Part shown: one piece after another, positions 10,624 through 54,784 of the stretch
Layout of the letters: the number at the start of each line of letters is the position of its first letter
Numbering within the stretch: position 1 is the first letter of the stretch
NCBI GenBank assembly: GCA_943789005.1
Contig: CALSSL010000001.1
Coordinates: 380,511 to 444,510 of the forward strand
DNA: 64,000 bases
Direction: 5' to 3'
Origin: an uncultured SAR86 cluster bacterium
GTDB lineage: Bacteria > Pseudomonadota > Gammaproteobacteria > Magnimaribacterales > D2472
The notes under the pieces: generated by a model
Seen by the model: the letters and a program-made list of their open reading frames with translations, nothing else
What the model was told of the DNA's origin: nothing
The model's database searches: none
Position numbers and translations under genes: made by a program

Positions 10624-12712
10624 ATCTCACTGTAACACCCATATGTCTTGGGTCGCCATGTCTTTCATAGAGTGTATCAATAAAATTTGGAGCCTCATTT
10701 CCAAAGTAAAAACCTCTTGTTGAATAATACTCGTCGAAAATATTTCTTCCCCAAATAGAGTAAGTCCACTGACCGCTAAAATAGCTATAGCTTAGATTTG
10801 TTAAGAAGTATGATTTTGATCTATTGTTATGCGAATCAGAATAATAAAAACTACTTTTCCCCACCACATCAAATGATAGATTTGATTGCTCTGTTAGATT
10901 CCAATTAAATCCAATTGCATAACTTTTTTCAGGGGCATGAGCCTGAGCTCTGCCTTGAAGATCTGGTCTAGATTTCCAATTTTTAATCTGGGTTTTAAGT
11001 AGCCCAAAATTAATAAATATATCTAGGTTATCAGATAGCTGAAAATCTATTTCTAATTCAATTCCATTGTTTGTTCCCTCGGCTGCATTTTGGGTTAAAA
11101 ATGTAAAAGTATTTGGGTCGGTTGGGTCGACCTGAGTTGAAATTAAAACCTGTTGATCTTTTCTGTCAGAGTGAAAAATCACAGCAGCTAGATTCATATT
11201 TAAATTTACAATTTTTGAATTTAGTCCAAGCTCATAATTGGTTAAAAATTCTGGATCATAGTAAAGATTGCTATTTATTGAATTTGGATCGAGACCAAGA
11301 TTTAAATTAAAACCACCTTGGTTATATCCTCTTGCAATACTAATAAAAATATTAGTATCTTGTTTTAAAATTTTGTTAATTGATAATTTTCCGCCTGAAA
11401 TTTTATCCGATGGATTAAACGACTCTCCAAATGAATCTGAATAAGTTGACTCTGAATCTTCCCAGCGAGCACCCAAGCTAAATGTGGTTGAATCATTTAT
11501 CAGATAATTTAAATTTCCAAAGATAGAAAAATTATCAACGGAGAATTTACTTGTTGATGAACTTTCACTTATATAAGGACCATATGGATCCAGGGGATCG
11601 CCATAAATACCATCATCATTTTTTAAGTTTGTCTCTTTGGACTCAAAAAAATGTAGTCCAAGTACCCATTCAGACCTTTTATTTACATCTAAATCAGCTA
11701 AATTTGATAAAAATCTAAATTCTTGGCTAAAAGTCTCCCTTTTTCTTTGTGTTTCAGAGAAATAATCATAAATATATGGCGCGTGGGTGGCAGAATTACC
11801 CCAATCCGCATCATAGCTCAATACAACATTGGTATCTGTCACACTTGTTAAGCTTTGAAATTCAAAATTATCTGTTTCGTGAAAAAATTTTATACCATAA
11901 GCATCTGTTTTTTGAGAATCCATGCCCGGTCTATCGGATAGAGTATTTAGACTTCCATCGATGGTCCATATATCTGCAGGGTCATCAAGATCGATTTGTG
12001 TCATTAAAAATTTAATAGTTGATTCTGAGTTTATTTCCCAATTTGCCTTAAGCCTAAAAGTTGATTCATCTTTTTTTGAAGCGTCTGATCTACCTGAATA
12101 TAGATTCTTTCTAAAACCGTCAGAGTAGTCTTTTCTTAAAGCTATTCTGTATGTAAAGTCTTCATTATCATCTTGTGCCGATCCACCAAAAGCTATACCA
12201 ACATTTCTAGTTCCATATGCTCCAGTCGTTATTTCACTAACTCCCTCAAATTCTTTTGTTGGTTCTTTGGTTTTTATATAAATTAGCCCAGCCATAGCGC
12301 TTGATCCGATTCTAGAGCCCTGTGGCCCTCTATGGACTTCAATTTGATCAACATCAAAAGTCGTTGCAATTCCTCCTTGTCCAGAATAATCAATATCATC
12401 TACTAAAAATCCAACTGCTGAATTAGGTGTCCTTTCATACCCGGATCTTTCACCGATACCTCTAATTTGAAAATGTCTAGCTCGTGAGTCGCTAGCTGCA
12501 AAATTCAAGTTTGGTATCAAATAAGATAAGTTTTCAAAATGTTTAATTGGAGCCGACTGAGTTTCTTTTGAGCTCAAAACTAATACGCTTGAGTCTTCTT
12601 CAATGAGCCTCGTCTCTCTCCAATTACCTTGAACTATAACCTCTTCAATATCTTCTGATATTAAATTTATTGAAAAGAAAAAAAGAAAAAAATAAGTTTT
12701 AATGGGTTTCAT
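10613..12712 (-). CDS. TonB-dependent receptor, probable thiamine receptor
   Basis: A 699-residue outer-membrane active transporter. Signal peptide about 1-19; TonB-box-like EEVIVQG just after it; a plug domain with RHFQIRGIGER and QIEVHRGPQGS; and a beta-barrel ending in the terminal aromatic signature (MGVTVRYDF). Translation is controlled by the TPP riboswitch immediately upstream, which makes thiamine or a thiamine precursor the likely ligand, delivered to the PnuT transporter encoded next. The energy-coupling genes tonB/exbB/exbD are not in this window. Confidence 0.9.
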   Translation of the reverse strand: MKPIKTYFFLFFFSINLISEDIEEVIVQGNWRETRLIEEDSSVLVLSSKETQSAPIKHFENLSYLIPNLNFAASDSRARHFQIRGIGERSGYERTPNSAVGFLVDDIDYSGQGGIATTFDVDQIEVHRGPQGSRIGSSAMAGLIYIKTKEPTKEFEGVSEITTGAYGTRNVGIAFGGSAQDDNEDFTYRIALRKDYSDGFRKNLYSGRSDASKKDESTFRLKANWEINSESTIKFLMTQIDLDDPADIWTIDGSLNTLSDRPGMDSQKTDAYGIKFFHETDNFEFQSLTSVTDTNVVLSYDADWGNSATHAPYIYDYFSETQRKRETFSQEFRFLSNLADLDVNKRSEWVLGLHFFESKETNLKNDDGIYGDPLDPYGPYISESSSTSKFSVDNFSIFGNLNYLINDSTTFSLGARWEDSESTYSDSFGESFNPSDKISGGKLSINKILKQDTNIFISIARGYNQGGFNLNLGLDPNSINSNLYYDPEFLTNYELGLNSKIVNLNMNLAAVIFHSDRKDQQVLISTQVDPTDPNTFTFLTQNAAEGTNNGIELEIDFQLSDNLDIFINFGLLKTQIKNWKSRPDLQGRAQAHAPEKSYAIGFNWNLTEQSNLSFDVVGKSSFYYSDSHNNRSKSYFLTNLSYSYFSGQWTYSIWGRNIFDEYYSTRGFYFGNEAPNFIDTLYERHGDPRHMGVTVRYDF

Positions 12713-12793
12713 GCAATTCCTCCGCCATTATTGTATGGATCAGGTTCAAAGGGTTTCTGTAAAGATCTCAGGCAATAAAGCCACCCCTTTGCA
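12712..12793 (-). promoter_or_regulatory. TPP (THI-box) riboswitch
   Basis: The minus strand shows the conserved THI-box elements in order: GGGGTGG, CTGAGA, ACCCTTTGAACCTGATC and GCGGAGGA. Stem P1 is formed by TGCAA (12793-12789) and TTGCA (12716-12712), whose last base is the A of the receptor's ATG. The conserved GGAGGA at the 3' side is also the Shine-Dalgarno of the receptor gene, 5 bases before the ATG. Ligand binding should therefore hide the ribosome-binding site directly, with no separate expression platform. Regulates the downstream receptor-pnuT-kinase operon. Confidence 0.95.
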
Positions 12794-12835
12794 GTTAGAT
12801 TAGATGATATTATTTTTTGTGATTCTTAGCTAGAT

Positions 12836-48715: not shown

Positions 48716-48721
48716 TTTATG

Positions 48722-48905
48722 ACATTCTGGTTCATTCGCTAATGTGTTGTTAAATTTGAACCGATACAATTAAATAGGTGATATTCCACTATCATTGTTG
48801 AGCAGTACCTTTACAGGGAAGCCTGATTTGATAAGAAATTCACCACCTGACCTTTCGGTTCAGGTAAAACACATGGCGGTGATTTGGTTTGTTAGCCTCG
48901 GCACA
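48722..48905 (+). ncRNA. ssrS: 6S RNA
   Basis: A non-coding stretch between zapA and the cycloligase gene, the usual ssrS site. The 3' half carries the recognisable 6S element: a small hairpin CCTGACC-TTTC-GGTTCAGG followed by ACACATGGCGGTG, comparable with the E. coli CCTTGAACC...GGTTCAAGG hairpin and GCGGC stretch. Outer arms GCTAA (48738) and TTAGC (48892) can close the long rod. About 184 nt, close to E. coli's 183. It binds sigma70-RNA polymerase in stationary phase. Ends are estimates. Confidence 0.75.
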
Positions 48906-54014: not shown

Positions 54015-54542
54015 TTAAAGAATTTTTTCAATTGCAGAAATAAGCTCTTTGGAATCAGGCTTAACCCCTGATTTAAAAGTGGAAATCACTTTTCCATTTT
54101 TAGAAATAAGATATTTATTGAAATTCCAAGTTGGTTCTACTCCAGATTCCTCTTTTAATTTTTTATAAAATGGGTGTGCTTTTTTTCCGCGAACTTTTAC
54201 AGTCGAAAACATGGGAAAGTCTACTCCATATTCTGTTGAACAGAATTCGGCAACATCACTTTCATTGGAATATTCTTGAAAAAAGTCTCTGGATGGAACT
54301 CCCAATACAACAAAATCATTTTCTTTATAAGTTTCATATAATTTCTGGAGACTAGCATATTGATAGGTATAACCACATCTACTAGCTACATTTACAACAA
54401 GCAACGTCTTTCCATCATATTCACATAAATTTTGAGTCTGAGCTGAATCAAGTATTCGCATTTCAGTATTAAGTAAATCTGAACATGCAAAAGCATGATT
54501 ACATGCAGCAATACAGACAATAGATAGTAATAGTTTTTTCAT
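54015..54542 (-). CDS. Glutathione peroxidase, exported, Cys type
   Basis: A 175-residue thiol peroxidase. Signal peptide about 1-19 (LLLSIVCIAACNHAFA). The peroxidatic Cys is in NVASRCGYTYQYASL (near 56), the position taken by selenocysteine in animal enzymes; the Gln of the usual triad is replaced or shifted (VPSRDFFQEY instead of the common FPCNQF), while the Trp-Asn pair is present in TWNFNKYLI. Reduces peroxides in the envelope. A TATACT hexamer lies 8 bp upstream of the ATG. The upstream 28-residue ORF and the hairpin leader may belong to the same transcript. Confidence 0.85.
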   Translation of the reverse strand: MKKLLLSIVCIAACNHAFACSDLLNTEMRILDSAQTQNLCEYDGKTLLVVNVASRCGYTYQYASLQKLYETYKENDFVVLGVPSRDFFQEYSNESDVAEFCSTEYGVDFPMFSTVKVRGKKAHPFYKKLKEESGVEPTWNFNKYLISKNGKVISTFKSGVKPDSKELISAIEKIL

Positions 54543-54571: not shown

Positions 54572-54658
54572 TTAAGCTAATGGGCCGATGGCTAGAACAG
54601 ATACTATAAATACACTGACCAGTATGAAAGTTTCAAATAATTCTTTATATTTACTCAT
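54572..54658 (-). CDS. 28-residue single-span membrane peptide
   Basis: ATG to TAA reads MSKYKELF, then a hydrophobic helix (TFILVSVFIVSVLAIGPLA). It begins 15 bases after the intrinsic terminator of the candidate small RNA and ends 29 bp before the glutathione peroxidase gene, on the same strand. There is no strong Shine-Dalgarno. The amphipathic start plus a clean transmembrane segment suggests a real small protein, but chance cannot be excluded. Confidence 0.4.
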   Translation of the reverse strand: MSKYKELFETFILVSVFIVSVLAIGPLA

Positions 54659-54673
54659 TTTTAAAAAAACCTA

Positions 54674-54750
54674 ATAAAAATGGAGGGACAGAGCCCTCCA
54701 TATGATTCCAGAGTGTCAGCAAATCTAATAGGGGGAGAGGAGTGCTGACT
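54674..54750 (-). ncRNA. Candidate small RNA or attenuated leader with C-rich loop
   Basis: The minus strand shows a 7-bp perfect stem (GTCAGCA at 54749-54743 with TGCTGAC at 54721-54715) closing a 21-nt loop that contains CTCCTCTCCCCCT, the complement of a strong Shine-Dalgarno. It is followed by an intrinsic terminator. A near-consensus promoter ends just upstream. Length about 77 nt. No Rfam family recognised. It could be a trans-acting RNA, or a leader controlling the downstream membrane peptide and glutathione peroxidase. Confidence 0.6.
54681..54700 (-). terminator. Intrinsic terminator
   Basis: Minus strand TGGAGGG-CTCTGT-CCCTCCA (7-bp stem, extendable by one A-U pair) followed directly by TTTTTATT. 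The T-run exists only on the minus strand. It is the clearest Rho-independent terminator in the window. Confidence 0.8.
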
Positions 54751-54756
54751 TGTACT

Positions 54757-54784
54757 ATTATATATACTTATATTATATTATCAA
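54757..54784 (-). promoter_or_regulatory. Sigma70-type promoter for the candidate small RNA
   Basis: Minus strand TTGATA (54784-54779), 16-bp spacer, TATAAT (54762-54757). The -10 is a full consensus match and the -35 matches 5 of 6. Predicted start near 54750, at the foot of the first hairpin. Confidence 0.65.

Follow-up and report, generated by a model that had tools for sequence, protein, structure and literature searches.

The stretch of DNA analyzed here (the window) comprises 64,000 nt of contig CALSSL010000001.1, positions 380,511-444,510 of the forward strand, from a SAR86 bacterium of the family labeled f1. On its minus strand, a compact series of elements lies upstream of a co-oriented glutathione peroxidase gene, gpx (54015..54542; PF00255, E 4e-27). 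The series opens with the -35 hexamer TTGATA (54784-54779), identical in 64 of 64 aligned copies, which is followed at a spacing of 16 nt by the -10 hexamer TATAAT (54762-54757), likewise conserved among the aligned copies. A further element in the spacer, TATAA (54768..54772), keeps TATA in all 64 copies and its last A in 63 of them, and is a candidate part of a regulator site. With 11 of 12 consensus matches, the two hexamers rank first among 24 promoter-like sites within 5.5 kb, a number of sites no higher than in shuffled DNA.

From covariance model R1 and the fold, an sRNA of ~75 nt is predicted behind this promoter (54676..54750, minus strand), with its start inferred from the -10 spacing. 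Hairpin 1 consists of the 5' arm GTCAGCA (54749-54743) and the 3' arm TGCTGAC (54721-54715), which enclose a 21-nt loop, CTCCTCTCCCCCTATTAGATT (54722..54742), whose conserved core is a candidate target-pairing seed. The linker between hairpin 1 and the terminator hairpin reads ACTCTGGAATCAT on the minus strand and contains the stretch CTCTGGAAT (54705..54713). The terminator hairpin, ATGGAGGG-CTCTGT-CCCTCCAT (54701-54680), is of the GGAGGG/CCCTCC type, and behind it the sequence reads as a T-rich tract, TTTTATT (54673..54679), that is weak in several other genera. Between this tract and gpx lies a micro-ORF, MSKYKELFETFILVSVFIVSVLAIGPLA (54572..54658), encoding a probable one-helix membrane peptide. 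The 76-nt RNA folds into two hairpins with -22.0 kcal/mol (z = -2.5), and 5 of 200 shuffled sequences were equally stable.

An earlier note on this DNA, whose range of 54572-54784 includes the micro-ORF (54658-54572), had described a promoter, a 7-bp stem with a 21-nt loop and a terminator hairpin on this strand, and all of them were found where it had placed them. Its statement that the window has no other clear intrinsic terminator was too strong, since a rough scan gave several more compact ones, for example at 49762-, 50035-, 30664- and 16620-. The window also holds a 6S RNA (48721-48894, plus strand; RF00013, 53.9 bits) and a TPP riboswitch (12700-12798, minus strand; RF00059, 61.1 bits).

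Conservation and covariation in two SAR86 families

Each of these elements is, taken singly, common in AT-rich DNA and could have arisen by chance, so that the locus might be read as a DNA-level or chance feature, a promoter with terminator-like inverted repeats and no functional RNA. That the elements are not due to chance is shown by their conservation. The same stretch is kept in nearly all f1 genomes, whereas good conservation of the flank past the terminator is mostly confined to the genus. Thirty-four copies went into model R1, which matches 100 of the 107 f1 genomes and all 10 genera, some genomes carrying two or three copies. Alignment A3, which was fitted to the structure, has 66 distinct rows; 96.2% of its cells pair, and both sides have changed in 10 of the 15 pairs, namely 6 of 7 in hairpin 1 and 4 of 8 in the terminator hairpin, where GGAG/CTCC is invariant in f1. 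The 38 double-change cells compare with 6.5 in shuffles, none of 500 being as high, and with 1-10 in slid structures; the MAFFT alignment A2 agrees (23 versus 4.3), and RNAalifold recovers the same helices unprompted. The stems and the loop, whose conservation the earlier note had named as a check, are both kept in related genomes, with compensatory changes. These changes, the conserved loop and an element order that is fixed in more than 100 genomes speak against a DNA-level or chance feature, which the covariation refutes in practice and which we regard as barely credible.

The RNA had been called undescribed, and this stands as far as Rfam (15) is concerned: no family matched it, permissive thresholds included, and none did so at its gathering score. 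No described sRNA for SAR86 was found in the literature. At the level of sequence, the locus has a strictly conserved sigma-70-type promoter whose spacer holds a further conserved element, followed by a covarying hairpin with CUCCUCUCCCCC in its loop and by a terminator-like hairpin. The locus very probably represents a genuine new sRNA family.

Weak R1 matches recurring in a second family, f4, proved on reading to be a divergent orthologue, with the promoter TTGATA, the stem GTCAGTC/GACTGAC, the loop TCTCCTCTCCCCC and the terminator GGGGCTTCGGCCCC. This f4 loop is invariant, yet the stem end and the terminator are unlike those of f1; the terminator loop, CUCUGU in the window, is mostly UUCG in f4. 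The loop core does not differ among 20 distinct f4 copies, whereas their linkers and terminators do. Across both families, the loop core CTCCTCTCCCCC(TAT) is conserved, in contrast to the variable stems and terminators. A single exact match to CTCCTCTCCCCC is present in each of 20 of the 21 f4 genomes, and the exact core also occurs in 2 of ~37 f2 genomes; none was found in the f3 genomes, where weak model matches (L190-L195) look like gene-end terminators and were rejected. When 84,980 species genomes were scanned for the stem together with the core, 42 matches were obtained, 41 of them in SAR86 or marine proteobacterial MAGs. The remaining one, in Eremiobacterota (L202), is taken as a chance match because it lies in GC-rich sequence with neither promoter nor terminator. 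A search of viral contigs for the core pattern gave zero matches. As far as searched, the sRNA family appears to be restricted to two SAR86 families.

Gene context, duplicates and the promoter motif

Copy A lies between a divergent fadB-like gene and gpx, followed by rpiA, in ~50 f1 loci, and the f4 copy is flanked by an L,D-transpeptidase-like gene and by gpx-rpiA (gpx, pseudoazurin and AOX were named by Pfam, the other genes from their protein sequences). Since the orthologues of both families sit at gpx-rpiA, the gpx-side position is considered ancestral. In 50 gpx-linked f1 copies, the terminator is followed by an ORF of 24-33 codons that begins 11-40 nt past the hairpin, and a similar ORF is found in f4; its changes fall mostly at third codon positions (4453, 2776 and 6465 by position). 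NCBIfam offered no name for this micro-ORF or for the small ORFs that accompany pseudoazurin in the operon described below. Between the hairpin and the micro-ORF there is scarcely space for a second promoter, and several genera have a poor U-tract; transcription from the sRNA promoter therefore probably continues into the micro-ORF and gpx, and the window copy is likely the leader of a conserved micro-ORF-gpx operon.

This arrangement allows the RNA to be read as nothing other than a cis leader or attenuator of that operon, in which the hairpin ends most transcripts, read-through is regulated and the released RNA is a by-product; the C-rich loop would perhaps pair with the GGAGGG terminator arm as an anti-terminator. 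Besides the scant promoter space and the poor U-tracts, such a reading can draw on the presence of gpx after every syntenic copy in two families, a position that suggests a cis role, and on a possible duplex between loop and terminator arm, predicted at -8.8 and -10.3 kcal/mol in the two families. At -8.8 kcal/mol, however, this duplex does not reach the stability of the terminator hairpin (-12.2 kcal/mol), and loop and arm do not covary: GGAGAG and GGAGGA arms occur with an unchanged loop.

The duplicates bear on the same question. A second copy (B) in the same genome (G000:C2:160532-160644) is 76% identical from promoter through terminator; in ~12 loci it adjoins a convergent sbcB and has, in most of them, a pseudoazurin gene as its other neighbor; no co-oriented gene lies behind it. 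A third copy (C), in genome G015 (L044), is divergent from an alternative oxidase gene. These duplicates retain promoter, stem, loop and terminator and mostly lack the copy A linker CTCTGGAAT, which is kept in the gpx-linked f1 copies and missing from most extra copies; the element has been duplicated as a unit. Because the downstream neighbor of copy B is convergent, the unit counts as an sRNA gene in its own right, and the small-RNA-gene anatomy proposed in the earlier note is borne out by such copies. Its own promoter, its terminator and the stand-alone copies, all pointing to a trans-acting type, are present, whereas a cis attenuator would need a co-oriented gene after every copy, and copy B faces sbcB. 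The attenuator that had been offered as an alternative may hold for the window copy, where gpx and the micro-ORF follow in every syntenic locus examined, but not for the duplicates, since copies B and C keep all four elements with no gene placed for read-through. We therefore consider a purely cis-acting leader rather unlikely; at the window copy, sRNA and leader roles may coexist.

When the promoter weight matrix was run over the whole genome of the host, three strong sites emerged: copy A (42.8), copy B (32.3) and the promoter of a pseudoazurin operon (33.1), the next site scoring 20.3. Beside the sRNA copies, the spacer element TATAA occurs in this genome only at the pseudoazurin-operon promoter, a site that is kept in other genomes. 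The operon itself (G000:C2:159517-160341; L002 ~480-1310) includes small membrane ORFs, adjoins copy B and carries the sRNA-type promoter motif. The occurrence of the motif at the sRNA copies and at this operon could reflect either one regulator acting on all of them or their origin by duplication, and the candidate regulator-binding DNA at the sRNA promoter is TTGATAATNNATTATAA. Because the motif is common to sRNA and pseudoazurin, a redox or metal condition is suggested as the signal. Control by Fur, whose gene is present in the genome, gains no support from the motif, which is not a recognizable Fur box: the element at the promoter is spaced by 2 bp and differs from the Fur-like boxes TGAGAATnATTCTCA that occur elsewhere in the genome, ahead of a receptor gene. 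In the same genome, near-identical genes are found on contigs C4 (L116) and C1 (g1314/g0705 and g1304/g0716), and C4 may represent either a variant of some region of C1 or a real duplication.

Candidate targets and a proposed mode of action

The complement of the loop is AUAGGGGGAGAGGAG, and sites of this kind were sought at ribosome-binding sites (RBSs), with start codons chosen by rule, not experimentally. In the host genome, GGGG is present at the RBS of 7 of 11 TonB-dependent receptor genes versus 49 of 1158 ATG-start genes (p 5e-8). Predicted pairings at likely starts reach 11 bp for g0199, 10 bp for g1151 and 9 bp for the receptor gene g0061. In one receptor family, GGGG stands at the site in all 24 f1 orthologues read, and a receptor RBS in genome G023 offers a perfect 14-nt complement to the loop of that same genome.

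Families f2 and f3 served as a control. GGGG at receptor RBSs is not significantly more frequent in f1 (31 of 57) than in f2/f3, where the sRNA was not detected (12 of 30; p 0.26), and since f2/f3 also show GGGG, the G-rich receptor sites are not due to the sRNA alone. Receptor genes of all four SAR86 families, including those with no detected sRNA, often have GGGG RBSs. The longer UAGGGG, largely limited to families with the sRNA, is found at 14 of 57 receptor RBSs in f1, 3 of 13 in f4 and 1 of 30 in f2/f3 (f1 versus f2/f3, p 0.015). Summed over genomes at least 90% complete, among which related genomes are not independent, ATAGGGG-N3-9-ATG and its reversed control stand at 191:97 in 19 f1 genomes versus 138:150 in 17 f2/f3 genomes (p 1e-5), whereas the Shine-Dalgarno-like AAAGGGG differs less, with 236:87 in f1 and 255:121 in f2/f3 (p 0.14); between these two contrasts the difference amounts to z 2.1. 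A loop-swap test on receptor RBSs was not significant (own 6.57 versus swapped 6.30; 153 of 2000), and in a genome-wide ranking of duplex energies, shuffled C-rich loops gave duplexes as strong as the real loop did. An anti-Shine-Dalgarno action of the loop is plausible from these counts, and the evidence for TonB-dependent receptors as a target class is suggestive.

Candidate protein partners were searched for as well. Within the order, no genome exceeded the cut-off for Hfq (PF17209; 61 genomes searched) or for ProQ (PF04352; 40 searched), with positive controls in both searches, and CsrA was not found in the host genome by tblastn. An enterobacterial-type sRNA dependent on Hfq or ProQ is not supported, as neither protein was detected in these genomes of the order. 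The RNA might also be a sponge that titrates a protein through its C-rich loop or GGA motifs and pairs with no mRNA. The ultraconserved loop core of both families, the linker CUCUGGAAU kept in gpx-linked copies and the presence of two or three copies in some genomes would fit such a role, but none of CsrA, Hfq and ProQ was found within the scope of these searches, and we know of no protein partner for such a C-rich loop; we judge a sponge improbable.

Pairing of the loop at G-rich RBSs is the mode of action that we favor as probable. Transcription from the sRNA promoter would yield an RNA of ~75 nt, in which hairpin 1 would present CUCCUCUCCCCC, single-stranded, in its loop. The C-rich loop would pair with G-rich RBSs such as AUAGGGGG and block ribosome entry on several mRNAs, those of TonB-dependent receptors included, with neither Hfq nor ProQ involved. 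At the window locus, some transcription would pass the hairpin into the micro-ORF and gpx, one promoter serving both the sRNA and the operon. More tentatively, a dual RNA is possible, one that is at once the attenuated leader of micro-ORF-gpx and a trans-acting, Hfq/ProQ-free repressor of SAR86 TonB-dependent receptors, controlled by a single redox- or metal-sensing regulator that also acts on the pseudoazurin operon, and turned by duplication into an sRNA alone.

SAR86 bacteria are among the most abundant bacteria of the surface ocean, have very small genomes and rely on TonB-dependent receptors to obtain substrates. A conserved sRNA family in an order with no detectable Hfq or ProQ would offer a natural example of RNA regulation without chaperones, and it would hint at how SAR86 cells retune uptake without many transcription factors.

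Comparison with known regulatory RNAs

Like 5' UTR attenuators and leader-derived sRNAs, the SAR86 unit places a hairpin and a terminator directly ahead of the micro-ORF and gpx; unlike them, it also occurs with no co-oriented genes downstream, in copies B and C. FsrA of Bacillus, which is Fur-controlled, and RsaE/RoxS of Gram-positive bacteria use C-rich single-stranded seeds to block the Shine-Dalgarno sequences of several mRNAs. No Rfam relation to these RNAs was found, and, in contrast to FsrA, the SAR86 sRNA has a promoter with no recognizable Fur box.

RepG of Helicobacter pylori pairs via a C/U-rich seed in its terminator loop, whereas the C-rich loop of the SAR86 RNA sits in the 5' hairpin. 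RepG is a trans-acting sRNA that acts on G-rich stretches of 5' UTRs in a host without Hfq and ProQ, and its target is a length-variable G-repeat upstream of tlpB (PMC8322730). G-rich 5' UTR sites are likewise proposed for the SAR86 RNA in an order in which Hfq and ProQ were undetected, but the proposed sites are short RBSs of G4-G5.

In the Rhizobiales, NfeR1/alpha-r14 RNAs carry a C-rich anti-Shine-Dalgarno motif in hairpin loops, are Hfq-independent, have predicted targets that are mostly transport mRNAs at the translation start and possess conserved sequence ahead of the promoter; CCUCCUCCC recurs in each of the three alpha-r14 hairpins, and the length of NfeR1 is 123 nt (PMC10746234). The proposed action of the SAR86 RNA resembles theirs in the absence of Hfq and in the candidate transport targets. 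Unlike them, the SAR86 RNA has one C-rich hairpin with CUCCUCUCCCCC, is ~75 nt long and is tied to the micro-ORF-gpx operon. Because it lacks defining features of each, we do not assign it to NfeR1/alpha-r14 or to RepG, the two whose action its own proposed one most resembles. Among the features that it shares with NfeR1/alpha-r14 is a C-rich anti-Shine-Dalgarno motif in a loop that, according to the fold and the covariation of hairpin 1, would be unpaired.
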